Positions 6,273 through 47,769 of a DNA stretch of 64,000 bases are shown here, piece by piece. Both the position numbers and the translations under genes were made by a program. The first letter of the stretch is position 1, and each line of letters opens with the position of its first letter. The notes under the pieces were generated by a model, which searched no databases, had not been told where the DNA came from, and was given only the letters and a program-made list of their open reading frames with translations. Source of the DNA: Halanaerobium saccharolyticum (GTDB lineage: Bacteria; Bacillota; Halanaerobiia; Halanaerobiales; Halanaerobiaceae); assembly GCF_003259895.1 (NCBI RefSeq), contig NZ_QLME01000001.1, forward strand, positions 280,819 to 344,818, in the 5' to 3' direction.

Positions 6273-6308
6273 AAAAAGGAAGGAGATATGAACACCTCCC
6301 CTTCCTTT
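6273..6308 (-). terminator. Terminator or attenuator between kduD and the aldolase gene
   Basis: On the minus strand AAAGGAAGGGGAG, a loop, then CTCCTTCCTTTTTAT: a strong hairpin followed by T residues about 35 bases after the kduD stop. The aldolase gene starts about 80 bases further on, so this may cut expression of the last two genes rather than end the operon. Confidence 0.8.
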
Positions 6309-6344
6309 CGTTAAATATGCTTATATTTCAAATTATTTTAAGTC

Positions 6345-33430: not shown

Positions 33431-34438
33431 TTATTGATTGGGATATGGTTGTTTTTCTCTGCTGGGTCCATCAACTTTAAGTTTTCCAGCTTCAAAATAG
33501 GCACGATCAAGATTAACATTTCTGTTACCACCCGGAAAATCCGGATAGGTGTGAGTATGATAAACTATATACAGTCTTTCTCCATTTTTAGAGTGGATAA
33601 AACTATTGTGACCCGGGCCAGAAATTCCTCGATCCAGATCTTTTTCCAGAATCGGATTTTCAGCTGCCTTAGTCCAGGGTCCCAGAGGATTATCAGCGGT
33701 CGCATAACCAATCGAGTAATCTGAAGAACTGTAAACATTGGCCGAATATGTCAGATAATATTTGTTTTTATGTTTTAATACATAGGGTCCTTCATTCCAC
33801 TGCCAGTCATTTTCAAGTCCTTCCCATTCCTGACTGGGTTCTAAGATTTTTTTAGGCTCACCTTTAAGTGATTTAAAATCATCACTCATCTTCTGGACAT
33901 AAATCTGACTCATATGGATACCATCTACAATATTTTCCGAGCAATCTTTAACATAATATAGATATTTCTTGTCATCCTCAATAAATATATGTCCATCAAT
34001 AAATGACATCTCCCTCTCAAAAAGTGGTGCCGCTATATTGATAAATGGTCCCAGAGGATTATCGGCTTTTGCTACTGCAATTTTAAGGTGGCCATCCCTA
34101 TCTCTGGCACTATAAGTCATATAAAACTGCTCATTATATTCAATGACTTCCGGAGCCCAAAAATCTCCCTCACCCCAGCGGTTTTCAGGATTGGAAGAAT
34201 CAAGAGCAAGCCCCTTTTCTTCCCAGTCAACTAAATCATTTGACTCCCAGACCTTAAAACCTAGCCCGGGCATCGAGGTAGCATAAAGATAATAAGTATC
34301 ATCAACCAGAATAACAAAAGGATCTCCAATGTCAGTTATATCTCCAACCGGATTTGTATATTTCATTTCTTCCGCTCCCCCCGGATTAACTATTAAGATT
34401 AGAATTAGTATTGTTAATAAGAATATCTTTTTAATCAT
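33431..34438 (-). CDS. Secreted GH43-family glycosidase (arabinofuranosidase/xylosidase type)
   Basis: 335 residues: signal peptide MIKKIFLLTILILILIVNPGGAE, then a five-bladed propeller. Catalytic blocks: Asp in DIGDPFVILVDDTYYLYAT (general base), Asp in FIDGHIFIEDD (pKa modulator) and Glu in WNEGPYVLKHKNKYYLTYSA (acid); GPGHNSFIHSKNGE closes the propeller. GH43 enzymes remove arabinose or xylose from hemicellulose or pectin side chains. It is the only glycosidase here with a signal peptide. The gene overlaps the GH2 gene by 8 bases, so an exported and a cytoplasmic enzyme are made from one message. Confidence 0.88.
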   Translation of the reverse strand: MIKKIFLLTILILILIVNPGGAEEMKYTNPVGDITDIGDPFVILVDDTYYLYATSMPGLGFKVWESNDLVDWEEKGLALDSSNPENRWGEGDFWAPEVIEYNEQFYMTYSARDRDGHLKIAVAKADNPLGPFINIAAPLFEREMSFIDGHIFIEDDKKYLYYVKDCSENIVDGIHMSQIYVQKMSDDFKSLKGEPKKILEPSQEWEGLENDWQWNEGPYVLKHKNKYYLTYSANVYSSSDYSIGYATADNPLGPWTKAAENPILEKDLDRGISGPGHNSFIHSKNGERLYIVYHTHTYPDFPGGNRNVNLDRAYFEAGKLKVDGPSREKQPYPNQ

Positions 34439-37121
34439 GCTGACCAGCCGCAGCTAAATCTCTGACCAGGGAATCAAATAAGAAATCAGCCTGAACTTTA
34501 TTCCCATAATTCTCAATTACTTTGAAAGTGTTGACCAGGATTTTCCCCTGCCCGGACTCGATTTCAACCAGTGAAAGTGCAAAATCACCAAGCCAGCCCT
34601 TAAAAACACCGGCCTTAACATTATAACTGCCGAGATCAGAAATGTTCTTTAGATAATATTCGGGATAAATGAAATCAAGCTCCCAGTCAGTAATTCTATT
34701 AAAGGGGAGTCCCGGATAATCTGCTGCAGCAAAAAAGTTAAAAGAAGCAGCTTTATCCCAGCTTTCCCCGGCTGGCTGGTTAATGAAGTTTAAATGATTT
34801 TTCTCTGCTATTTCTGAACCCGCCTCTGCCAGAAATAATAGTCTGGCTCCCTTTTTAACGGCTTCTTTTATTTCCTGATCCAGATAATCACTAACTATTA
34901 AGCCCTGCTTTCCGGGGCTTGCTTCACTTCTTAATTTATAGCCCCTCTTAACTAAATTATCTCTAAATTCCGGCTTCTTAACTCTTAAATCAAGCTCAAT
35001 TTTATTTCTTAACTTTTCCGATTTCTGCAGGCCGGGATATAATCTGATTTCTGCCTTATCCAGAACAGGCTTTTCGTTTTTTCCATTTAAATACAATTTT
35101 AATTTAAGCTCTCTGCTTTGAGCTTTATTAACTTCGACCAGCTCAATTAATTTTTCCCCCAATTTGAGTTGAGAACTGCCACTAACGTTGATTTCACCGA
35201 CTTTTATTTCTCTGCCTTTATCAATTTGATAGAATAATTCTCCCTCAATTTTAGTTAAAGTATTATTGATAATCAGTGGTTCAATTCTCAATTTTTCTCC
35301 TGCATAAAGATTTCTTTTTTTAAGATTGAGACTGAGCAAAACTGCCTGGTTATAACTCAGTTCATAATCAAAGTTGGGTTTTTCTTCTCTAAAGAAATCT
35401 AAAAAACCATTTGTTTCCCACTCAATATCACTCAATTCTGTAACAACATATCCACCAATTTCTTCTCTTTTTCTTATTTCTTCAATTAAAAATTTCATCC
35501 CTTCTGACTCTCTTTTTTGTGTTGCCAGAGCCAGATCATCAAGGCTGGAAAAGATTTTATCAAGTTGATATTTTTCGAAATTAATTTCTGCTGTAACAGG
35601 GACTTTAAATTCTTCGTCAAATAATTTAGAACTATTATTATACCACTGCGGTATTTTTTGGTAACGATCTTTAATTTTAGAAGGTTCGGGCAGCCCCCAC
35701 ATTCCAAATTCGGAAAGCACTTTGATTTCATCATTGTGATACTCAGGGTTAACATAATTTTTTTCAGGATTTCCAACCACATAATTATCCAGATCATCCT
35801 GCCAGCTTGAAGCATCTTCGGGCACAGCAAAATAGCGGTGGATATCATTAATATCGGTTTTTACATGAGCCCAGCCAGAGTTATCACAGATCGGACGAGT
35901 TGGATCTAACTTTTTCGCATAATCGTAAAATTCAGCCAACCACTGCTGTTTTGCTTCATCCTCTGCCAGATCCCATTCTAATCCCCACTCTTCATTATAA
36001 ATACTCCAGATAATAATTGAAGGATGCTTTTTATCCCTTTTTATCATTTCCGTATATTCATCTTTAAATAAATTTCGGGCTTCTTTTGTCCACTTTGCAT
36101 AATTAGGTGGTTCTTCCCAGATTAAAAGTCCCATTCTATCTGCTGCCTCTAAATAGTCGGGGTCTGCAATTTTTATATGTTTTCGCAGCAGATTAAAGCC
36201 AAGTTCTTTAACCTTTTTTATTTCTGCTTCAATCTGCTCATAATTATCCAGTTTATAGCGAGAGTGAGTCCAGAACGCCTGATCAAGTGCTCCTCTAATA
36301 TATAGCGGCTGATCATTTAAATAAAACTTATCCCCTCTAATTTCAATTTTCCTGAAGGCAAAATAATCTCTGTGCTGATCTATTATTTTGGCTCCTTCTT
36401 TTAAAGTAATCTTGAAATCATATAAAGATGGAGATTCTGGTGACCAGCTCTGGATTTCCTCGAGTTGAAATTTCAGATCATCTTTTAAAGCAAAAGTCTT
36501 TTCTCTAATTTTATTAGATTTATTTTCAGGTGAAAAGATTTCGACTTCCAACATTGGGCTCTGCAGCTCTGTCAAATTATCTACTTCTGCTTTAAATTTC
36601 ACAATTTTTTGCTTATAATCTGTCTGATATTCTACATTTTTTATAAAAGATTGCGGTGCTTCTATCAGCTCAACATCCTGCCAGATTCCACTGACCCGGC
36701 TGTACCAGCTCCCCTGTTTCCCATGGGGTATCTCATCATTATCCTCGGGGTCATGGACTTTTAAGTGGATCATATTTTGCCCAGTTAATAAATCATCTGT
36801 CAGCTCAAAGCTAAAAGGAGTATAGCCACCGGTATGAGAACCAATATAGCTGCCATTACAATAAAGCTCTGCCTGATAATCTACTGCTTTAAATTCGATA
36901 AAATATCTTTTGTTTTCTTCTTTTTCTAATTTGAAATTCTTATTATACCAGGCATAACCACAGTAGCTATAGAGCTCCTGACTGTAGCTCTGCCAGGCTG
37001 CAGGTACAGTTGCTTTTTTTGATTTGAATTGATGGGAGTACCATTCTTCTTGCTCCCCAACATTATTTTTATCTTTTTTGAAAAACCATTCTCCATTTAA
37101 ATTTATTATATTTTTTTTCAT
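34431..37121 (-). CDS. GH2-family glycoside hydrolase (module 1)
   Basis: 896 residues with the GH2 order: sugar-binding domain (about 1-170), immunoglobulin-like domain (180-270), TIM barrel (275-600) and a long C-terminal extension of about 290 residues. The acid/base is in IIIWSIYNEEWGLEWD and the nucleophile in VLSEFGMWGLPEP. No signal peptide. Specificity could be beta-galactosidase, beta-glucuronidase or beta-mannosidase. It follows the MalG-type gene by 13 bases, so it is part of the regulator-transporter-hydrolase module at 34.4-41.4 kb; its paralogue at 41623 is shorter because the C-terminal extension is missing. Confidence 0.9.
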   Translation of the reverse strand: MKKNIINLNGEWFFKKDKNNVGEQEEWYSHQFKSKKATVPAAWQSYSQELYSYCGYAWYNKNFKLEKEENKRYFIEFKAVDYQAELYCNGSYIGSHTGGYTPFSFELTDDLLTGQNMIHLKVHDPEDNDEIPHGKQGSWYSRVSGIWQDVELIEAPQSFIKNVEYQTDYKQKIVKFKAEVDNLTELQSPMLEVEIFSPENKSNKIREKTFALKDDLKFQLEEIQSWSPESPSLYDFKITLKEGAKIIDQHRDYFAFRKIEIRGDKFYLNDQPLYIRGALDQAFWTHSRYKLDNYEQIEAEIKKVKELGFNLLRKHIKIADPDYLEAADRMGLLIWEEPPNYAKWTKEARNLFKDEYTEMIKRDKKHPSIIIWSIYNEEWGLEWDLAEDEAKQQWLAEFYDYAKKLDPTRPICDNSGWAHVKTDINDIHRYFAVPEDASSWQDDLDNYVVGNPEKNYVNPEYHNDEIKVLSEFGMWGLPEPSKIKDRYQKIPQWYNNSSKLFDEEFKVPVTAEINFEKYQLDKIFSSLDDLALATQKRESEGMKFLIEEIRKREEIGGYVVTELSDIEWETNGFLDFFREEKPNFDYELSYNQAVLLSLNLKKRNLYAGEKLRIEPLIINNTLTKIEGELFYQIDKGREIKVGEINVSGSSQLKLGEKLIELVEVNKAQSRELKLKLYLNGKNEKPVLDKAEIRLYPGLQKSEKLRNKIELDLRVKKPEFRDNLVKRGYKLRSEASPGKQGLIVSDYLDQEIKEAVKKGARLLFLAEAGSEIAEKNHLNFINQPAGESWDKAASFNFFAAADYPGLPFNRITDWELDFIYPEYYLKNISDLGSYNVKAGVFKGWLGDFALSLVEIESGQGKILVNTFKVIENYGNKVQADFLFDSLVRDLAAAGQHD

Positions 37122-37134
37122 TATTAAACCTCCA

Positions 37135-37968
37135 TCAGCCCTTCATACCTGTCAGGGCAATTCCCTTAACAAAATATTTTTGGGCGATTATAAAAATTAT
37201 AATTACTGGAACAGCAGAGATAAATGCACCTGCCATCAATTTTCCAAATTCGGTCATGAAATTTGACTGCAGCAGTCTTAGTCCTGGTGTCAGCGGACGC
37301 ATTTTGGCTGAATTTGTAATAATTAAGGGCCACAAAAATGCATTCCAGGAAGCTCTAAAAGTAAATAAGCCGAGGGCTATCAGAGCCGGTTTTGCCATTG
37401 GCAGAGCAATGATATAGAAAATCTGGAACCTATTACAGCCGTCAATATAGGCAGCATCCTCTAATTCAGAAGGTAGGCCGATAAAAAATTGACGCATTAA
37501 AAAGACTCCAAAAACTGCTGCTACCTGAGGAAAAATCAGCGCCTGATAGCTGTCAATCCAGCCCAGCCGATCCATGATTAAATAATTTGGAATTAGATTG
37601 GTAACCGGTGGCACCATCATTGTCGCCATTAGAAGCCAGAATAAAACATTTTTGCCTTTAAATTCGAGGCGGGCATAGGCATAAGCTGCTAATGAATCAA
37701 CTGCCAGAACTAAAAAAGTTGTCGCTGTTGAAACAAAAAAACTATTAAAAAACCAGCGTAAAATTGGTGTTCGCGGTGAATCAAAAATTATATCATAAAA
37801 ATTATCAAAGGTTACTTCTTTTGGAATTATTTCAATCGGCCAGGCAATAACCTGTGATTCTGGTTTTAAAGCAGTACTCAGCATCCATAATAAGGGTAAA
37901 ATCCAGATAGCCGCGAAAGAAATAACAATAATATAGGTTAATATTCTTAGATTCTTTTCTCTTTGCAC
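37135..37968 (-). CDS. CUT1 sugar ABC permease, MalG type (module 1)
   Basis: A 277-residue six-helix protein with EAA loop ELEDAAYIDGCNRFQIFYIIALPMAKP and the family's C-terminal YFVKGIALTGMKG. Twelve bases separate it from the MalF-type gene. Its counterpart in the duplicated module is 43485-44315. Confidence 0.93.
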   Translation of the reverse strand: MQREKNLRILTYIIVISFAAIWILPLLWMLSTALKPESQVIAWPIEIIPKEVTFDNFYDIIFDSPRTPILRWFFNSFFVSTATTFLVLAVDSLAAYAYARLEFKGKNVLFWLLMATMMVPPVTNLIPNYLIMDRLGWIDSYQALIFPQVAAVFGVFLMRQFFIGLPSELEDAAYIDGCNRFQIFYIIALPMAKPALIALGLFTFRASWNAFLWPLIITNSAKMRPLTPGLRLLQSNFMTEFGKLMAGAFISAVPVIIIFIIAQKYFVKGIALTGMKG

Positions 37969-37980
37969 TTAAACCAACTC

Positions 37981-38871
37981 CTAATATTTAACATCTGATG
38001 ACATGATTTTAAATTGAAAAATTCCAATTATAATAATAAATAAAGAGACAACAATTGCCATTGCTGCTGCACTTCCCATCTTATAATTAGTAAATGCCTC
38101 CTGCTGGATATACATTATTGCTACCTGGGTTGAACGACCGGGACCTCCCTGGGTCATCATAAAAGGCTGACCAAAAACATTAAAAGAAGCAACTGTGGTC
38201 ATAACTGTCACAAAAAGTGTAGTTGGTTTTAATGATGGGAGAGTTATATACCAGAACTGTTCAAATATACTGGCTCCATCAATTTTAGCTGCTTCGTATA
38301 AATGCTGTGGTATATCCTGTAAACCGGCTAAAAAAAGAAGCATATTATGACCTGCAGTCCACCAGACAGTTGTCACCACCAGTGAAATCCAGGCTGGTGT
38401 TTCCCGGGAAAGCCAGGCTACAGACTCAAGCCCCAGCTGATTAAAGAAATAATTTATTAAACCGGTCTGGCTGTCAAGCATCCACATCCAGATCAGCGTA
38501 ACACTTGTAACCGAAAGAATTACTGGAGTGTAGAAAATACTTCTAAAAAGACCTTTATATTTAATTTTACTATCAACTAAAATTGCAAGTAATAAACCGA
38601 TTAAAACAAGTGCCGGTACACTAAAAATTACAAACTGTAAGGTATTAACTAAAGCATTCCAGAAATAACGGTTCTGTAAAGTACCTGAGGTAAATAATTT
38701 TTGATAGTTTGCCAGACCAATAAAAGGCTTATTAAAACTTAAGGGTTCCCATTTATGTAGACTGATATAAATACCATAGAAAGCAGGGAAAGCCAAAAAA
38801 GCAGTGAAAAAAATTAAATGTGGGGTTATAAATAAATAAGGAGTTAACTTTCTTAAATACTTTTTAAACAT
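37981..38871 (-). CDS. CUT1 sugar ABC permease, MalF type (module 1)
   Basis: A 296-residue six-helix protein with EAA loop QHLYEAAKIDGASIFEQFWYITLPSLKP. It is the intact counterpart of the frameshifted permease at 44317-45203, and the two can be aligned throughout by eye. It follows the binding-protein gene after a GC-rich hairpin. Confidence 0.93.
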   Translation of the reverse strand: MFKKYLRKLTPYLFITPHLIFFTAFLAFPAFYGIYISLHKWEPLSFNKPFIGLANYQKLFTSGTLQNRYFWNALVNTLQFVIFSVPALVLIGLLLAILVDSKIKYKGLFRSIFYTPVILSVTSVTLIWMWMLDSQTGLINYFFNQLGLESVAWLSRETPAWISLVVTTVWWTAGHNMLLFLAGLQDIPQHLYEAAKIDGASIFEQFWYITLPSLKPTTLFVTVMTTVASFNVFGQPFMMTQGGPGRSTQVAIMYIQQEAFTNYKMGSAAAMAIVVSLFIIIIGIFQFKIMSSDVKY

Positions 38872-38934: not shown

Positions 38935-40215
38935 TTACTGAGTCTGTAAATATTCATCCAGGGCCATTTGTCCAGCTTCTGCTGCATCTTTTAATGCTGC
39001 TGCAGGTTCTTCCTGACCTAAAATAGCTAGATTAACCGCTTCGTAGTACGGAGTTAAAATACTGCTTGCAATTGGATGTTTAGGTGGGAAAACCACACTG
39101 TCAACTTCCTGAGCAATAGAAGCTTGATGTTCTAATGATTTAAAGGCCTGAGTATCGCGAACTGAATTTCTGGCAGGAATTTGACCAAAGGTAGCCCACT
39201 TATCACTGTTATTTGAAATATATTTTACAAATTTAGCAGCTGCCTCAAATTCTGCTTCTGAATTTCCAGCTTTGCGGAAGAAAACAAAATTATGTGAGTT
39301 CCCGGCAATAGCCAGCTCTTGTCCCATTCTCGGTACCGGATATGACATAAAGTTTAAACCTTCCTGATCTTTAAAACCGCTGATCATCCAGATACCATTT
39401 AAATGCATACCAAGTCTTCCCTGTCTGAATAATGTTACCTCACCATCCTGCTGAATATCTGTTGGAGAATAACCTTTGTTATGAACTAAATCCACAGCAT
39501 ATTCTAAAGCTGCAATAGACTCTTCACTATCAACAACAACCTCGGTTCCATCTTCATTTAAGAATGATCCACCAAATTGTCTAAGTAATGTTGGTAAAAT
39601 AAATTCTGGTCCAGGCCAGAGTGGTGGAAATGCTGTTCCCCACTGATCAATCTCTCCATCACCATCAGTATCTTTAGTCATTTTTGCAGCTGCATCCATA
39701 AATTCTGCTGGAGTTTTAGGAGGATCTTCGGGATCTAATCCCGCTTCTTCAAATAGATCTTTATTAATATACATTGTAAGTGGATGGACATCTAAAGGAA
39801 TTCCATATCTATTTCCTTCGTAAATACCTGCATCCCAGACTGAATTTGAAAAATCGTCTTTACTCCAGCCCAAATCAGCAACAACCTGATCCAGATCCAA
39901 TAAAACACCTTTAGAAGCAAATTCCGGTACCCGGTCAACATGCATAATTCCGATATCAGGAGAAGAATCACTGCGGGTACTTAAAGCAGTAACTACCTTT
40001 TGATAATATGTTCCCCACTGCATAACCTGCATTTCGACTTCAATTTCACCCTCATTTTCTTTGTTAAATTCTTCTACCATTTTTCCCATACCTGTTCCAT
40101 CAGGTCCGGTAAAGCCATTCCAAAAATCAAGAGTGATTTCTTCTGCCAAAACACTACCTGTTGTTAAAAGTAATATAACCACCAGAAAAACTGAAACTTT
40201 GACACGTTTTCTCAT
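38935..40215 (-). CDS. Sugar ABC transporter substrate-binding protein (module 1)
   Basis: 426 residues, solute-binding family 1: signal peptide MRKRVKVSVFLVVILLLTTGSVLAE, then LDFWNGFTGPDGTGMGKMVEEFNKENEGEIEVEMQVMQWGTYYQKV. It shows a calcium-site-like DTDGDGEIDQWG near residue 180, an EF-hand-like loop that is unusual enough to note. GGAGGAAAAAAATG is the start context. Paralogue: 45290-46531. Confidence 0.92.
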   Translation of the reverse strand: MRKRVKVSVFLVVILLLTTGSVLAEEITLDFWNGFTGPDGTGMGKMVEEFNKENEGEIEVEMQVMQWGTYYQKVVTALSTRSDSSPDIGIMHVDRVPEFASKGVLLDLDQVVADLGWSKDDFSNSVWDAGIYEGNRYGIPLDVHPLTMYINKDLFEEAGLDPEDPPKTPAEFMDAAAKMTKDTDGDGEIDQWGTAFPPLWPGPEFILPTLLRQFGGSFLNEDGTEVVVDSEESIAALEYAVDLVHNKGYSPTDIQQDGEVTLFRQGRLGMHLNGIWMISGFKDQEGLNFMSYPVPRMGQELAIAGNSHNFVFFRKAGNSEAEFEAAAKFVKYISNNSDKWATFGQIPARNSVRDTQAFKSLEHQASIAQEVDSVVFPPKHPIASSILTPYYEAVNLAILGQEEPAAALKDAAEAGQMALDEYLQTQ

Positions 40216-40245: not shown

Positions 40246-40287
40246 TAGTTTAATAAATCTTATATTAAAAAAAGAATTATTAAACTA
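40246..40287. promoter_or_regulatory. Inverted repeat in the module 1 binding-protein promoter
   Basis: TAGTTTAATAA at 40246-40256 and TTATTAAACTA at 40277-40287 are exact inverse complements 20 bases apart, about 30-70 bases upstream of the start. TAGTTTAATAA recurs upstream of the module 2 binding protein (46649-46659), and TTTAATAA also occurs in the promoters of both ArsR-like genes. Confidence 0.65.
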
Positions 40288-40441
40288 GCGCTTAAAAAAA
40301 TTACTTCGGCCGAATAAATATAAAAATAAACTTATCAACAGGCTTATTAACTGATTTTATTATGCTGTTATTAGTCTATTTCGTCATTCAGTTTAAAATT
40401 CCTTCTTTTAATTTAAGTTTTTTTATTTTAAGCTGTAATTT

Positions 40442-41362
40442 TTATTCATGCCGCAGCCTCAGCAGTAAATCCTGCTCATAATTACCAAATTTTTTCCCAA
40501 AAAGATTGAGTCCACCTACATTTTTGGCATCGTCTTTAATTCCTATTTTAAGATCAATAAACTTTTGATTCATAACATCTAAATCATCTAAATTAATTTC
40601 TGATATCTTTTTGCCATCAATATAAGAACCGTCACTCCGGACACTCCACAGCTTTAAAAGTCCATACTGGGTCTGATCAGGATTCCACCACTCTGGATTA
40701 AGTTTACCCTGCTGTCCGCCAAAATCTCCAGGTGAAGTCCAGGTTCCAATCTCTGTCCCATTAATCCAGACTGTTATATCTGAAGGAAATTCCTTATTAT
40801 AATGAGGAGCTTCAGAACAGATTTCCATACTAATTTCTAAAGATGTCAGTTTAGAATTGCTGGCAAGATTATTTGGAAATTTATATTTAACATAACCTTT
40901 TTTAAACCATAATAATTGGGCATAGATATGCTCAGGTTCTAAAAATGCTCTCTCATCATCTAAAATACCTATGTAATCTTTTTCAGTTGCCAGACCACAG
41001 GTTGGCTCAACTTCAAACTCTTTATAATTACCAATCGGCATAGATATCTCAACTAAATTATTATCAAAATCAATATTAGCACCGGGAAACTTAACAACTA
41101 TACTGTCATAGGTTCGACGGCATATTTTGCGGGAACCATGGCTGCCTGATTCATATTCAGTTTCAATCAAACCGGCCTCTTCTAATTTTTTGATATTAAC
41201 CGTTACTGAAGGTGCCGGCATATCAAGAACTTCAGAAATTTCAGTTAAAGTCATTTCTGAACTATTTAATAAATCAAGAATCATCATTCTCGGCTCTGAA
41301 GCTAAAGCTTTCATTATTTCTACACTTTCATTACTATCTATTTCAAAAATTTTACCGTACAT
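40442..41362 (-). CDS. ArsR-type HTH regulator with a C-terminal beta-rich domain (module 1)
   Basis: 306 residues. Residues about 12-85 form an ArsR-like winged helix (MKALASEPRMMILDLLNSSEMTLTEISEVLDMPAPSVTVNIKKLEEAGLIET). The rest, about 95-305, is strand-rich with conserved ICSE, SDITVWINGTEIGTWTSPGDFGG, NPEWW, TQYGLLKLW and KNVGGLNLFGKKFGNY blocks; it suggests a jelly-roll or carbohydrate-binding fold, a reading I cannot test here. It lies just upstream of the sugar-transport genes, so I infer a one-component sugar sensor. It is strongly similar to 46772-47704. The promoter is at 41406-41434 and contains a palindrome likely to be its own operator. Confidence 0.78.
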   Translation of the reverse strand: MYGKIFEIDSNESVEIMKALASEPRMMILDLLNSSEMTLTEISEVLDMPAPSVTVNIKKLEEAGLIETEYESGSHGSRKICRRTYDSIVVKFPGANIDFDNNLVEISMPIGNYKEFEVEPTCGLATEKDYIGILDDERAFLEPEHIYAQLLWFKKGYVKYKFPNNLASNSKLTSLEISMEICSEAPHYNKEFPSDITVWINGTEIGTWTSPGDFGGQQGKLNPEWWNPDQTQYGLLKLWSVRSDGSYIDGKKISEINLDDLDVMNQKFIDLKIGIKDDAKNVGGLNLFGKKFGNYEQDLLLRLRHE

Positions 41363-41405
41363 AATTTACACCTCTTAATCAACTTTTATTAACATTATTT
41401 ATTTT

Positions 41406-41434
41406 ATTTTAACAATTATTAAATTGAAATGCAA
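41406..41434 (-). promoter_or_regulatory. Promoter and candidate operator of the module 1 regulator gene
   Basis: On the minus strand TTGCAT, 17 bases, TAAAAT, ending 44 bases before the ATG. The spacer and -10 hold TTTAATAATTGTTAAA, palindromic except for one symmetric pair. The promoter at 47741-47769 has the same -10, spacing and palindrome. Confidence 0.7.
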
Positions 41435-41498
41435 TATTATTTCTCATCTAAAACGATTAACCCGGAAAACTTATGCCGCTTTTTCTACAAAAATAATT

Positions 41499-41545
41499 AA
41501 AACCCCCTCCAAACTCAAGCAAACAACCTGAGTTTAGAAGGGTTA
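41499..41545 (-). terminator. Terminator of the module 2 GH2 gene
   Basis: AACCCTTCTAAACTCA pairs with TGAGTTTGGAGGGGGTT (a few wobbles) and is followed by TTAATT on the minus strand, about 80 bases after the GH2 stop. Confidence 0.78.
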
Positions 41546-41622
41546 AGTAACTACACTATTTTATTCTTTTACCGAAAGTATTAAATAAACTCCAGTTAAG
41601 ATTCTTGTTTGGGGAAAGAGCT

Positions 41623-43404
41623 TTACCGCTCAACAATTTGATTAAACTCAATAATTTTTTCTAAATCGAGTTTGAATTCTCGGTTTTCATCTAAGAGACC
41701 ATTTTTCTCCTGCTCAACATCGGTCAATTGAGTATAACAGTAACCTTTAAAATAATCAGCCTCTTTAATTATTTCCATCAGCTTCTTCATTTTCCGGCTC
41801 AGTTCTTCTTTGCTTTCAACCTGCTCACCATAGCCCCAGCCTTCTTTGTTCTGGAAAGCTATACCACCAAACTCACTGAAAATAATCGGCTGCCCCTGAT
41901 AGCAATAATTATCAGCCATTATAAACTTACCACCTTCAATATATTTCTGGTCATTAAAAACTTCTTTATTCTGAAGCAGTTGATCTATACTCTCAACATA
42001 AGTCTTTCTGAGCTTATCTGTATTTTCAACATAATCATGAAAGGTAATTATATCAGAAATAGTATGTTCCCAGCCATCATTGGCAATAATTGGCCTATGA
42101 GGATCAATACTTCTGGTTAGATAATAGATACTCTCGGTAAAACTCTGCTGTTTTTTATCTCTGGCAACATCTTCAATTCCCCAGGATTCATTAAAGGGGA
42201 CCCAGGTGATTATTGAAGGATGATTATATAATTCCTGGACAACCTTAAGCCACTGAGTGCTGAAATTTTCTACAGCCTGATCATTATACTCATATGTTGA
42301 TCCAATTTCTGCCCAGACTAAAATCCCTAATTTATCAGCCCAGTAATAAAAGCGATCAGCTTCTATTTTTTGATGTTTACGGGCTCCATTAAAGCCCATT
42401 TTTTTAATTAATTCCACGTCTTTTTTTAAGGCCTGATCAGAAGGAGGGGTCATTAAACTTTCCGGCCAGTAACCCTGATCGAGTATTAATTTTTGATAAA
42501 GTGGTTGATTATTCAAATATATTTTATCTTTCTCAATTGAAATTTTTCTCATTCCAAAATAGGAATTAACCTGGTCTACTGCTTTCATCCCCTTGTAAAG
42601 AGTCATTTTCAGATCATATAAGTCTGGCTGCTCCGGAGACCAGAGTTTCATCTGATTATCATCATCAAGATTGACCTTATATTTATGATTATTTTTATTT
42701 ATTTTAAACTCAAATTTATTGATCAGCTTACCCTCAAATTTTATTTCTGTCAAAAGTTTATATTCTCCGGTTTTAAAGTCAGCTGCTTTAAAATTATATT
42801 CCAGCTCAACTTCTTTTTGATCTATATCTGGTGTGATTTTAATCTTTTCAAATTGAAGCTTCTGATCCATAAATTCCAGCCAGACAGTCTGCCAGATCCC
42901 TGTAGTTCTGGTATACCAGCAGAGAAAATTATCTTTTTTGTAAGTCTGTTTACCTCTGGGCTGAGTTTTTGAGCGTGAATCTTCAACTTTAACTATAATC
43001 TTATTTTTCCCCTGATAACTGACAAAGTCACTGATGTCAAAACTGAAAGAATCATAGCCTCCGATATGACTGCCGACAAAACTACCGTTAATCCAGACTT
43101 TAGTCAGATAATCTACAGCACCGAAATTCAAAATTACTTTTTGCCTGGCTTCTGCCTCAATATCAAAACTCCTCTGATACCAGATATAATTATGTTCTCT
43201 CCTGTCAGCAATTCCGCTTGCTTCAGTTTCGAAGGTAAAGGGAACGATTATTTTATTTTCAAGTTTCTTTTTTTGATACCATTTATTTTTTTCTCCCTGA
43301 TTCTGGTCATCAAAAGCAAAATTCCATTCACCATTTAGACTCTGCCAGTTTTCCCTTTTAAACTGGGGGTTCGGATGTTCGGGCCTGGGTATTTTATTCT
43401 CCAT
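41623..43404 (-). CDS. GH2-family glycoside hydrolase (module 2, short form)
   Basis: 593 residues: sugar-binding, immunoglobulin-like and TIM-barrel domains only, a size like beta-glucuronidases. The acid/base is in ITWVPFNESWGIEDV and the nucleophile in PIIFSEFGGIAFQN. It lacks a signal peptide. It opens much as its relative at 34431 does (LNGEWNFAF..., YLTKVWINGSFVGSHIGGYDSFSFDIS). It is the last gene of module 2, following the MalG-type gene by about 80 bases. Specificity between galactoside and glucuronide cannot be settled by eye. Confidence 0.9.
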   Translation of the reverse strand: MENKIPRPEHPNPQFKRENWQSLNGEWNFAFDDQNQGEKNKWYQKKKLENKIIVPFTFETEASGIADRREHNYIWYQRSFDIEAEARQKVILNFGAVDYLTKVWINGSFVGSHIGGYDSFSFDISDFVSYQGKNKIIVKVEDSRSKTQPRGKQTYKKDNFLCWYTRTTGIWQTVWLEFMDQKLQFEKIKITPDIDQKEVELEYNFKAADFKTGEYKLLTEIKFEGKLINKFEFKINKNNHKYKVNLDDDNQMKLWSPEQPDLYDLKMTLYKGMKAVDQVNSYFGMRKISIEKDKIYLNNQPLYQKLILDQGYWPESLMTPPSDQALKKDVELIKKMGFNGARKHQKIEADRFYYWADKLGILVWAEIGSTYEYNDQAVENFSTQWLKVVQELYNHPSIITWVPFNESWGIEDVARDKKQQSFTESIYYLTRSIDPHRPIIANDGWEHTISDIITFHDYVENTDKLRKTYVESIDQLLQNKEVFNDQKYIEGGKFIMADNYCYQGQPIIFSEFGGIAFQNKEGWGYGEQVESKEELSRKMKKLMEIIKEADYFKGYCYTQLTDVEQEKNGLLDENREFKLDLEKIIEFNQIVER

Positions 43405-43484
43405 ATGCTACCTCCTAAAATAATTCGTTCAATTTAAAAAATATCTAGGCGAAAATTATCCTGTTTATAACTTTTCTAAAAGCC

Positions 43485-44315
43485 TTATCCCTTAATTCCT
43501 GTAAATTTAATCCCCTGAATAATTTGTTTCTGAAATAACAGGAAGGCTGCTATTGCCGGTAGAGAAGCAATCATGTTAACTGTCATCGGTATTGAATAAT
43601 CAGGGGTATAGGCGTCTGTAAAAGTTGGAACTCCAACCGGTAAAGTAAACATTTCTTTGGACATAATCGCTATAAAGGGCCATAAGAAAGCATTCCAGGC
43701 CTGAATAAAAGTAAAAATTCCAATAGAAGCAATTGCTGCCTTAGACAGCGGCATAAAAATAGAAAAGTAGATTCTAAATAAACCGCAGCCATCAATCCGG
43801 GCACTGTCAATTAAGTCTCTAGGTATAGCATCAAAAAATTCTTTTAAGATTATTATCCCCAGTGGAATCGCTATTCGCGGTAGAATAAGTCCCGGATAGC
43901 TGTTGACTAAACCTAATTTTTGAATAATATCAAACAGGGCTACTATATTCGCTTCTGTAGGGACCATTAAACCAATTGTAAATAAGATAAAGACTAAATT
44001 TTTATGTTTAAAGTCAATGACAGATAAAGCAAAAGCTGCCAGTGAATCAAAAATAATCACAATAAATGTTACACTTGCGGAAACTATAAAACTGTTTAAC
44101 ATCCATTTTAGTACAGGCGCACTCGCAATTACTTCAAAATAATTAGCAAAAGAATAAGGTGGTAAAAACCACTCAATAATCTGTGAAACATGATAGCCAG
44201 ACGGTTTAAGAGAAGCAAAAAGCATCCATAAAATAGGAAAAATAAATAATATCGCCAGCAGATATGAAAATGAATATTTTAAAACTTTAGCGGTTGGTGA
44301 AGTTTTATTTTCCAT
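43485..44315 (-). CDS. CUT1 sugar ABC permease, MalG type (module 2)
   Basis: A 276-residue six-helix protein with EAA loop DLIDSARIDGCGLFRIYFSIFMPLSKA, ending IIQGIKFTGIKG. It starts 2 bases after the MalF-type stop. It is intact, in contrast to its partner permease, which is frameshifted. Confidence 0.92.
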   Translation of the reverse strand: MENKTSPTAKVLKYSFSYLLAILFIFPILWMLFASLKPSGYHVSQIIEWFLPPYSFANYFEVIASAPVLKWMLNSFIVSASVTFIVIIFDSLAAFALSVIDFKHKNLVFILFTIGLMVPTEANIVALFDIIQKLGLVNSYPGLILPRIAIPLGIIILKEFFDAIPRDLIDSARIDGCGLFRIYFSIFMPLSKAAIASIGIFTFIQAWNAFLWPFIAIMSKEMFTLPVGVPTFTDAYTPDYSIPMTVNMIASLPAIAAFLLFQKQIIQGIKFTGIKG

Positions 44316-44316
44316 A

Positions 44317-45203
44317 TTATCCTTCCTTTCTTTTACGTAAGTAAATCTGTGCCATAGAGACTAAGACTAAAATGATAAAAAAGGCAAAGGCCATTGCTGC
44401 ACCATAACCCATACTATTTTGTTTAAAACTTGTTTCATAAATATACTGAACTATGGGACGGGTATCTGTGCCCGGACCACCACCGGTGATTAACCAGACC
44501 TGTGAAAAAATCTTAAATGAAAATATAATCTGCAGTAAAGTTACTACCCAGGTTATTGGTTTTAATGAAGGCAGAGTAATATATAAAAGCTGCTGAAACT
44601 TGGTTGCCCCATCAACTTCTGCTGCTTCATAAAAAGACTCCGGTATATCCTGCAGTGCTGCCAGATATAAGACCATATTAAAACCGACTGTCCACCAGAG
44701 AGTTGCAAAAACAATTACAAACCAGGCAAGTCTGGTTTCTCCCAGCCAGAAAATAGTTTCCTCTACCCCAAAATTTGCTAAAATCCCATTTAAAAGTCCA
44801 CTGTGGGGCTGAAAAAAATAAACCATGATTGAAGAAATAACTGCCACTGATAAAACATAAGGAAGGAAAAAAGAAATTTTGATAAATAATTGCCCTCTAA
44901 TTTTTTGATTTGCCAGTAATGCCAAGACAAACCTCCGATAACAATTGTCGGCGTCGAAATAATTACAAAAAGTAGAGTGTTCCCCAGAGATCCCCAGAAT
45001 GCGGGATCCTTAATCATATAAAGATAATTATCAAGTCCCACAAAACCCATATTACGAACCATAGTCCAGCGGTGTAAACTCATCCAAAACCCTCTGAAAA
45101 TTGGATAAATTAAAAATATCGCATAAACTAGAGCAAAGGGCAGCATAAAAGGTAAGGCCTTTAAAAATGGATAGCTATCTGATAACTGATTATAACTTTT
45201 CAA
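44317..45203 (-). pseudogene. CUT1 sugar ABC permease, MalF type, with a frameshift (module 2)
   Basis: The N-terminal part (from ATG 45203) reads as a normal permease up to STPTIVIGG near codon 91, then runs into a nonsense tail ending at 44790. The rest of the protein (VLALLANQKIRGQLFIKISFFLPYV to the stop at 44317) continues in another frame, with the EAA loop SFYEAAEVDGATKFQQLLYITLPSLKP intact. Loss of one base in GGAGGTTTGTC near 44928-44933 explains it; one extra T would restore GGFVLALL. The paralogue at 37981-38871 is intact there. Either a true inactivating mutation or an error at a short homopolymer. If real, module 2 cannot form its transporter unless other MalF proteins substitute. 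Confidence 0.88.
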
Positions 45204-45236
45204 AATAATACCTCCTCGTATAATATACTTAATCAG

Positions 45237-45263
45237 GCACAGGTGCAGCTACAGCACCTGTGC
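45237..45263 (-). other. Stem-loop between binding-protein and permease genes (module 2)
   Basis: GCACAGGTGC and GCACCTGTGC pair over a 7-base loop, followed by CTGATTAAG on the minus strand without a T run. Same position as in the other two sugar operons. Confidence 0.75.
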
Positions 45264-45289
45264 ACAATTAAGTCTTTATTTCTGGGTTC

Positions 45290-46531
45290 TTATCTACTCA
45301 ATAACCTTTCGATTCCCTGACCTGCCTCTTCTACCGCTTCTGCTGGAGTTATTTGACCATTCCATACTTTACTTAAAGCTGTAGTCATTTCAGTTCTAAT
45401 TCCCCAGGTGTCAGAACCAGCACTATCAAAAGTTACATAATCTGCTGCCTTAACATAATCCATTCTATAAGGCATATTTCTAAATGATTCTTTTTCTGTA
45501 ATAGTCTTTTTACTTGGTATATGACCGGCTTTTGCCCAGAGTTCTCCATTATCAGTAGCCCACTTAGCAAAAGTTAAAGCTGCTTCTCTTTTTGTTTCAT
45601 CAACATTTCTGGCAAAAGGAAGAACTAAAGTATGAGAATCACCCCAGACAGATCTATTATCAAAAATCTGCGGCATCGGAATAACACCAAAATCTAAGTC
45701 TTCTGTGGCTTCTAAAGTCCCGGTGATCCAGACACCAGTTAATAAGGAAGCTGCTTCTCCATTTCTAAATAAATTTACATTTTCCATATACTCAGAATGA
45801 AGTGGTGAATATTCCTTATCATATAGATCCTGCATATATTCAATTGCTTCTACAGCTTTTGCTTTATCTAAGGTCAGTGTACCCTCTGTTACTACCGGAC
45901 TTCCTCCGAGCTGATTGTAAAGACTCCACCAGACTCTGTAGTGACCTTCTGCAGTTAATTTTGTCCAGTTGGTCATCGGATATTTTGCAGAAGAATCAGA
46001 CTTCAATTTTGCCAGAAAATCCTTAAATGTACCGTCCATCTCTGGCTTTCCATCTTCAGTCAGCAAATCTGCCTCTGCTAATAATTCTTTATTATAATAT
46101 AAAACTAGGGGGTGGGTATCCAGTGGAACTGCATAAATCTGACCATCAATTTCGGCTCCACTCAAAATATTCTCATTATACTCATTCCAATTAATTCCAA
46201 CATTTTTCCCCAGCTCATTTAAAGAAACAATTAAGCCCTCATCTGCCAGTTCTTTAACTCTGGTAACATGACTGATTGCAATATCAGGTCCATTACCACT
46301 GGCAGTTGCAGTTTTCAATTTAGTATAATATTCTTCCCATTCCAATCTGGTTACATCTACTTCTATGTTTTGATGAGCGGCATTAAATTCTTCTACAATT
46401 GCATCCATAAATTCAGCATCTCCACCACCAAAGAGATTCCAGTACTCAACAGTTACTGTTTCAGCCAGAGCATTTGAAGTAAATCCAACCAATACAGCAG
46501 CTAAAACTAAAAACAAAATCTTTTTCTTCAT
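45290..46531 (-). CDS. Sugar ABC transporter substrate-binding protein (module 2)
   Basis: 413 residues: signal peptide MKKKILFLVLAAVLVGFTSNALAE, then VTVEYWNLFGGGDAEFMDAIVEEFNAAHQNIEVDVTRLEWEEYYTKLKTA, the solute-binding family 1 start. It resembles the protein at 38935 more than that at 31870 (shared IAISHVTRV/IGIMHVDRV and YGIPLDVHPL/YAVPLDTHPL). First gene after the regulator at 46772, from which about 240 bp separate it. Confidence 0.92.
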   Translation of the reverse strand: MKKKILFLVLAAVLVGFTSNALAETVTVEYWNLFGGGDAEFMDAIVEEFNAAHQNIEVDVTRLEWEEYYTKLKTATASGNGPDIAISHVTRVKELADEGLIVSLNELGKNVGINWNEYNENILSGAEIDGQIYAVPLDTHPLVLYYNKELLAEADLLTEDGKPEMDGTFKDFLAKLKSDSSAKYPMTNWTKLTAEGHYRVWWSLYNQLGGSPVVTEGTLTLDKAKAVEAIEYMQDLYDKEYSPLHSEYMENVNLFRNGEAASLLTGVWITGTLEATEDLDFGVIPMPQIFDNRSVWGDSHTLVLPFARNVDETKREAALTFAKWATDNGELWAKAGHIPSKKTITEKESFRNMPYRMDYVKAADYVTFDSAGSDTWGIRTEMTTALSKVWNGQITPAEAVEEAGQGIERLLSR

Positions 46532-46648
46532 TATAAATCCCCCTTAAGAATTTTAAGATTGCCCAACTACTTTTTCAATTAACAATATTGCGAATATTAA
46601 CTGCTAAAAAAATACCCCCCTCCTTTTTTAATTCATGTATTACTGCTT

Positions 46649-46659
46649 TAGTTTAATAA
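46649..46659. promoter_or_regulatory. TAGTTTAATAA motif upstream of the module 2 binding protein
   Basis: An exact copy of the half site of the inverted repeat at 40246-40287, here inside GCTTTAGTTTAATAAAAG with a weaker inverse partner (AATTAAAGC) to its right. Candidate binding site of the ArsR-like regulators. Confidence 0.5.
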
Positions 46660-46771
46660 AAGTTGAATTAAAGCACATAAAAAATTTACCTGACTATTTG
46701 GCTCTATTATTACTATTCAACACAAAATCTGAAATTCCTGCTTTTATTTTATATTTTTTTGATTTAATTCA

Positions 46772-47704
46772 TTAATCATTGAATTTATATCGATATCTGA
46801 GCATAATATCCTGTCTATAATTACCAAATTTGCGGCCGAAAAGATTGACTCCACCTACATTGCGAGCGTCTTCTTTTACACCAATCTTTACATCGATAAA
46901 ATCCTCTTTTTCAAGATTTAGCTCATTTAAAGTCACATTCGAAATTTTATTGCCATCTACATAAGTACCTTCTTCTGTAACTTTCCAGATTTTTAATAAT
47001 CCATGCTGAGTCTGATCAAAATACCACCAGTCCGGATTTAAAATTCCTCTATTCTCACCAAAATCTCCTGGAGAAGTCCAGACACCAATTTCCACACCAT
47101 TAATCCAGAGAGAAATATCAGAGGGCCAGTCTTCATTATAATCCGAAGTTTCTGAGCAGATTTCCATACTCAATTCCAGTTTTGTTGCCTGAGAGTTTTT
47201 AGGCAGATTATTTGGAAAAACATATTTGACATAACCTTTGCCAAACCAGAGAATCTGAGCATGGATATGTTCTGGATGCAGAAAAGACTTAACATCATCT
47301 AATTCTCCAATTACTGCTTTTTCGGAGGCCAGACCACAGGTTGGGCTGACATCAAAATCCTTATAATTACCAATCGGCATCGATGTTTCAATTAAATTTT
47401 TATCTTTTAATTCTCTATTTCCGGGTAGATTAATTAATATCTTATCATAGTTTAAACTGCATATTTTTTGCGAACCATGATTTCCCGGCTTATATTCAGT
47501 TTCAATTAAACCTGCCTCTTCCAGCTTTTTAATATTTACTGTGACTGAGGAAGCCGGCATATTTATAAATTCAGAAATCTGATTTAAATTCATATCTTCA
47601 TTCTGTAAAACTTCAATAATTTTCATTCTGGATTCTGATCCCAGAGCTTTCAGAACCTCAATTATCTGTTCCTCATCTTTTAGTTCCATTATATTACCCT
47701 TCAT
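46772..47704 (-). CDS. ArsR-type HTH regulator with a C-terminal beta-rich domain (module 2)
   Basis: 310 residues from ATG 47704 (GGAGG 7 bases upstream); an ATG at 47722 overlaps that site and is rejected. The ArsR-like winged helix (LKALGSESRMKIIEVLQNEDMNLNQISEFINMPASSVTVNIKKLEEAGLIETE) and the long C-terminal domain match the protein at 40442-41362 block by block (CSE, SDISLWINGVEIGVWTSPGDFGE, NPDWW, TQHGLLKIW, RNVGGVNLFGRKFGNY). No cysteine pair typical of metal-sensing ArsR proteins is visible in the HTH. It probably senses the sugar carried by the adjacent transporter. Function is inferred from context only. Confidence 0.78.
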   Translation of the reverse strand: MKGNIMELKDEEQIIEVLKALGSESRMKIIEVLQNEDMNLNQISEFINMPASSVTVNIKKLEEAGLIETEYKPGNHGSQKICSLNYDKILINLPGNRELKDKNLIETSMPIGNYKDFDVSPTCGLASEKAVIGELDDVKSFLHPEHIHAQILWFGKGYVKYVFPNNLPKNSQATKLELSMEICSETSDYNEDWPSDISLWINGVEIGVWTSPGDFGENRGILNPDWWYFDQTQHGLLKIWKVTEEGTYVDGNKISNVTLNELNLEKEDFIDVKIGVKEDARNVGGVNLFGRKFGNYRQDIMLRYRYKFND

Positions 47705-47740: not shown

Positions 47741-47769
47741 ATTTTAACAATTATTAAAGTAAAAAGCAA
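47741..47769 (-). promoter_or_regulatory. Promoter and candidate operator of the module 2 regulator gene
   Basis: TTGCTT, 17 bases, TAAAAT on the minus strand, with the palindrome TTTAATAATTGTTAAA at 47743-47758. It is the counterpart of 41406-41434; the surrounding non-coding sequence is not conserved, which argues that this block is functional. Confidence 0.7.

Follow-up and report, generated by a model that had tools for sequence, protein, structure and literature searches.

One-component regulators of the LacI, AraC, GntR and ROK types control ATP-binding cassette (ABC) transporter and glycoside hydrolase (GH) operons locally through a sugar-binding domain. The first ArsR-family factor predicted to act in carbohydrate use is ArbA, which adjoins abfA in Caldicellulosiruptor; in the parts of the paper drawn on here (Rodionov et al. 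2021, PMC8579813), it has three predicted sites together with an AraR site, the sites lie in 5' untranslated regions or over promoters, and it was called a repressor from the position of its sites relative to mapped transcription starts. Those parts give no description of its C-terminal domain. Here we describe two paralogous genes on a 64,000-nucleotide stretch of Halanaerobium saccharolyticum DNA (the window; assembly GCF_003259895.1, contig NZ_QLME01000001.1, positions 280,819 to 344,818 of the forward strand), each of which fuses an ArsR-like winged helix to a beta-rich sensor domain. We think it likely that the two paralogues are local repressors under autoregulation, and that oligosaccharides containing arabinofuranosides or galactofuranosides relieve the repression. 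They would resemble the LacI, AraC, GntR and ROK regulators in their local control of ABC/GH operons and differ from them in both the DNA-binding domain and the sensor fold.

A preliminary description of this DNA had proposed two paralogues of about 306-310 residues, and both genes are present:

40442..41362, minus strand: regulator 1, 306 amino acids (aa), with a winged helix at residues ~10-83 and a beta-sandwich resembling a carbohydrate-binding module (CBM) at residues ~101-306
40445..41062, minus strand: sensor domain of regulator 1, without a Pfam family, predicted to be a CBM6/35/36-like jelly roll
46772..47704, minus strand: regulator 2, 310 aa from the ATG at 47704, with the same architecture as regulator 1

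The open reading frame of regulator 2 runs from 47722 to 46772 (316 aa), and its start is likely the ATG at 47704, supported by a Shine-Dalgarno sequence, GGAGGT, at normal spacing. The two proteins are 61% identical and 79% similar across 307 residues. As the preliminary description had recognized, the N-terminal region is an ArsR-like winged helix, scoring above the Pfam cut-offs for HTH_20 (40.3 bits against 27) and HTH_5, the ArsR family (35.1 against 22). The conserved blocks that it quoted from the ~200-residue C-terminal domain occur in both proteins, and in an alignment of 37 sequences from several phyla the blocks WTSPGDFG, WW, GLLK, GG and FGNY are near-invariant. The conserved residues include W208, D213, W225 and W226. 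A third paralogue (41% identical) lies on a different contig of the same genome (locus L146, contig C27), and a genome scan for relatives matched at least 594 stretches, of which at least 573 were confirmed as related loci, so the architecture is far beyond chance. The 80 loci kept from these come from Bacillota, Chloroflexota, Armatimonadota, Spirochaetota, Pseudomonadota and candidate phyla. Within a sample of Bacillota, the phylum of the window, 24 of 398 genomes encode the domain, as do 260 plasmid records, chiefly from Rhizobium and Sinorhizobium, where the proteins are annotated as ArsR-family or helix-turn-helix (HTH) regulators.

The ~200-aa C-terminal domain has no relative in Pfam, in NCBIfam or, when searched as a profile, among the PDB sequences; it matched neither a known non-sugar family nor a Pfam CBM, and no CBM stands among its PDB profile matches. 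Matches to acetylcholine-receptor profiles (E 0.12-0.28) and to MRF_C2 (E 0.11) were at chance level and were set aside. An AlphaFold2 model built from 37 diverse sequences (predicted local distance difference test score 92) consists of four helices and a wing followed by an all-beta sandwich; with a predicted template modelling score of 0.67 for the two-domain model, it is uncertain how the two domains sit against each other. The best structural matches to the winged helix (residues 8-89) are CzrA and CadC (Z 12-12.8, with CzrA at 12.8; root-mean-square deviation 1.3-1.9). For the beta domain the best match is the CBM6 of an agarase (2cdp/2cdo; Z about 9.8-10.1, root-mean-square deviation 3.0, 123-124 aligned residues, 14% identity), followed by CBM35, CBM36 and CBM-bearing glycosidases (CBM6/35/36 range Z 8.5-10). 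The CBM or jelly-roll likeness that the preliminary description had raised is thus borne out at the level of the predicted fold, which is closest to CBM6, CBM35 and CBM36 at Z 9-10. The sensor domain differs from these modules in lacking detectable sequence similarity to their PDB chains, in being fused to a DNA-binding domain and in being cytosolic. A divergent copy of it is also found in a 710-aa protein in locus L139 (181-2313, minus strand) with a lipobox-like N-terminus, no recognized DNA-binding domain and no Pfam match, indicating that the sensor domain can occur apart from the winged helix.

The likeness to ArbA probably extends to the C-terminal domain. In genomes assigned by context as Caldicellulosiruptor-like, a family member and a GH51 gene point away from each other and an AraR-like CTTGTACATGTACAAG box lies in the gap, an arrangement that matches the description of ArbA in the parts of PMC8579813 cited above. 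One of these members (L121), which its gene context suggests is ArbA, is about 44% identical to the window pair over the full length, C-terminal domain included. The third H. saccharolyticum paralogue is likewise divergent from a GH51 and GH43 pair, and in our tree it is sister to the ArbA-like clade (support 100/99). In contrast, the window pair fall outside it, in a clade from Halanaerobiales (100/99), and head CUT1-GH2 operons rather than standing beside abfA (GH51). Beyond ArbA, the literature searched yielded no paper on a fusion of the winged helix with this sensor domain. The preliminary description had called the family likely undescribed and an ArsR-type sugar regulator a new one-component design. 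The first claim survives for the sensor domain, which is without a match in the libraries searched, and is not supported for the family as a whole, since ArbA was already predicted and the third paralogue falls in its clade; the second was anticipated by ArbA, as far as the consulted parts of PMC8579813 describe it. The regulator class has therefore been predicted once before, and what is new here is the fold of the domain, its breadth, the link to furanosides and furanosidases, and the operators.

Each regulator lies directly upstream of a sugar ABC operon, as had been pointed out, in the order substrate-binding protein (SBP), permease, permease, GH2 enzyme:

38935..40215, minus strand: operon 1 CUT1 SBP (PF01547/PF13416), whose PDB relatives include an arabino-oligosaccharide-binding protein that is not the top match
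37981..38871, minus strand: operon 1 ABC permease (PF00528)
37135..37968, minus strand: operon 1 ABC permease, MalG type, assigned from position and translation
34431..37121, minus strand: operon 1 GH2 enzyme, 896 aa, nearest structures 7sf2 and 7xyr
33431..34438, minus strand: operon 1 GH43 enzyme, close to H. orenii HoAraf43 (PDB 4qqs)
45290..46531, minus strand: operon 2 CUT1 SBP
44317..45203, minus strand: operon 2 ABC permease (MalF type), frameshifted into two overlapping frames (45203-44790 and 44925-44317)
43485..44315, minus strand: operon 2 ABC permease, MalG type
41623..43404, minus strand: operon 2 GH2 enzyme, 593 aa, nearest structure 7xyr (GH2_19), then 7sf2 and the galactofuranosidases 9j6n/9j6m

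The counterpart of the split permease is intact in two relatives (L156 and L157); judged from its reading frames, operon 2 may be impaired or may carry an assembly error. HoAraf43 is active on p-nitrophenyl-alpha-L-arabinofuranoside and inactive on arabinopentaose. A 2025 classification assigns 7XYR to GH2_19 and gives furanoses as the substrates of GH2_18 and GH2_19 (PMC12243196).

We surveyed the neighbourhoods of 79 loci selected by similarity to the window, with the window proteins, GH51 and GH127 as probes; the set is largely window-derived, so the rates describe this sample. Genes were called with composition weighting, since taking the longest frame produced shadow genes where loci are GC-rich. 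Of the 79 loci, 68 contain a gene for a CUT1 transporter or a glycosidase within 6 kb (CUT1 in 59, glycosidase in 60), and the association with glycan genes that the preliminary description looked for thus holds across phyla. The share of glycan genes falls with distance, from 42% at 0-3 kb through 29% to 13% at 6-10.5 kb (nearest against farthest, Fisher p ~4e-20, kinship among loci ignored). All 53 GH2 neighbours resemble the GH2 pair of the window more than its LacZ, and for 48 the 593-aa enzyme is the nearer of the pair. GH51 occurs in 14 of the 79 loci, and independently annotated rhizobial records call it alpha-N-arabinofuranosidase; GH43 neighbours recur among related loci, a GH127 beta-L-arabinofuranosidase-like gene is also present, and a YtfQ-like binding protein is found in Deinococcus. 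Judged by these genes, a furanoside (L-arabinofuranose or D-galactofuranose) is a better candidate than a xylo-oligosaccharide. The two sugars are indistinguishable here because some operons of the regulator-1 type in relatives adjoin galactose genes. In some GH2 neighbours (in L075, L095, L099, L080, L092 and L083) a simple pattern picks up no NE catalytic motif, and its absence has been reported in certain members of GH2_19 (PMC12243196).

The neighbourhoods also bear on another inducer. The regulators could respond to a sugar that is not a furanoside, such as a beta-galactoside or a fragment of arabinogalactan or xylan, with the furanosidases as co-regulated accessories. Genes resembling galE, galT, galK and galM flank the regulator operon in three relatives of the regulator-1 type (L149, L150 and L151), the window itself holds a LacZ-type GH2 and a GH3, and fragments of agarose and xylan are ligands of CBM6/36 modules among the structural matches. 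However, none of the 53 GH2 neighbours is LacZ-like, and furanosidase-type enzymes are the common denominator over clades whose transporters differ, so we regard a non-furanoside inducer as unlikely.

The predicted promoters of both regulators contain a candidate operator, and further candidates precede the transporter operons:

41406..41434, minus strand: regulator 1 promoter TTGCAT-17-TAAAAT, with the near-palindrome TTTAATAATTGTTAAA at 41408-41423 as candidate operator
47741..47769, minus strand: regulator 2 promoter TTGCTT-17-TAAAAT, with the near-palindrome TTTAATAATTGTTAAA at 47743-47758 as candidate operator
40247..40286, minus strand: weak candidate operator half-sites AGTTTAATAATTC ... 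TTTATTAAACT before SBP 1
46650..46667, minus strand: candidate operator TTCAACTTTTATTAAACT before SBP 2, with 2 mismatches and a position conserved in relatives

TTTAATAATTGTTAAA equals its own reverse complement at 14 of 16 positions and fills the -35/-10 spacer of both promoters. The exact pattern occurs in three places in the 3.3-Mb genome, two of which are these promoters, and the block TTGC(T/A)T-17-TAAAAT with TTTAATAATTGTTAAA is near-invariant in 11 relatives with diverged flanks. The third paralogue and its Caldicellulosiruptor-like counterpart carry TTTTA-N8-TAAAA at the equivalent promoter position. A palindromic motif search in six groups of relatives scored clearly above shuffled sequences in two Paenibacillus groups, Bacillaceae and rhizobia; palindromes stand before both the regulator and the next operon in one of the Paenibacillus groups, Bacillaceae and rhizobia, where the sites ahead of the target operon are clearer than in the window. 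Paired sites ahead of both regulator and target operon would also suit transcriptional activators, in which the sugar promotes DNA binding or contact with RNA polymerase, and sequence does not fix the sign of control. The near-palindrome that fills the -35/-10 spacer nevertheless favours repression of the regulator gene, and the ArbA sites, as given in the consulted parts of PMC8579813, lie in 5' untranslated regions or over promoters; activation therefore seems to us a poor prospect.

Three other elements were seen near candidate operators or resemble them. ATATTCGCAATATTGTTAATT lies before SBP 2 (46577-46597, minus strand) and is conserved in several relatives. Just past the stop codon of regulator 2 (46714-46739, minus strand), and equivalently at 40377-40403, stands AGGAATT-N14-GAATA, which resembles a sigma-H promoter, keeps its spacing in relatives and has 27 occurrences genome-wide, compared with 8 for a reversed control pattern. 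On another contig (G000:C12:72296-72331; L158 ~6297-6332), two tandem near-operator palindromes directly precede an esterase-like gene of what is probably a mannoside locus, possibly marking an extra regulon member or arising by chance in AT-rich DNA.

The winged-helix fold is shared with the ArsR/SmtB metalloregulators CzrA, SmtB and CadC, from which the window pair differ in lacking the alpha-5 helix and the metal-site cysteines and in gaining a 200-aa beta-sandwich. In the monomer model the alpha-5 dimerization helix is absent, with no helix predicted between residues 63 and 136, and both regulators score below the curated cut-off of the NCBIfam metalloregulator model NF033788 (44.4 and 41.9 bits against 55). 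That they are ArsR proteins that sense metals or redox state, their C-terminal domain being unrelated and structural and the sugar genes adjacent by chance, is scarcely credible: the ArsR-like winged helix and a single cysteine (C122) invariant in the 37 aligned sequences would suit it, but the winged helix has no conserved cysteine pair on inspection of that alignment, the alpha-5 helix and the NF033788 score are wanting, and the glycan context is consistent across phyla.

From the computed domain architecture, the predicted fold, the association with glycan genes, the furanosidase-type neighbours and the conserved promoter near-palindromes, we propose how the window pair would act as furanoside-relieved repressors. 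The winged helix would bind the TTTAATAATTGTTAAA operators between the -35 and -10 elements of its own promoter, and probably also the weaker versions before the adjacent transporter and glycosidase operon. After uptake, the CBM6/35/36-like domain would bind a furanose or short oligosaccharide that derives from glycans containing arabinofuranosides or galactofuranosides. Binding of the sugar would lower the affinity for DNA, so that the genes for uptake and hydrolysis are derepressed.

Several points weigh against this proposal. Eph receptors and insecticidal Cry proteins appear in the same fold list at Z 8.5-9.4, and since such unrelated non-sugar beta-sandwiches score this well, the modelled fold suggests sugar binding as a hint, not a proof. 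Structures of galacturonidases and glucuronidases match the 896-aa GH2 enzyme almost as closely as those of galactofuranosidases do, and the gal genes beside operons of the regulator-1 type hint that a galactose-containing sugar is degraded and that the inducer may be a galactoside. In 11 of the 79 loci no recognized glycan gene lies nearby, two of these being at contig ends. The candidate sites ahead of the transporter operons of the window are weak, the palindromes of Chloroflexota and the Alicyclobacillus group are marginal against shuffles, and the related upstream sequences in that search are not independent of one another. Repression, autoregulation, direct sugar binding, the identity of the sugar and allostery are what we infer from the computed features.

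For the family at large, we put at about even the chances that a widespread cytosolic CBM-type sensor responds to furanosidic sugars and governs DNA binding by an ArsR-like winged helix from which the dimerization helix has been lost, a one-component design that would be structurally undescribed. At the at least 573 loci in several phyla and in the 260 plasmid records, the proteins are filed as generic ArsR or HTH regulators and their sensor domain is unnamed. If the proposal is true, these proteins are local sensors of arabinofuranosides or galactofuranosides; their annotation would be corrected, furanosidase and transporter genes would be flagged, and sugar-responsive switches would be on offer. 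The architecture of a carbohydrate-binding module would then be at work within a transcription factor.

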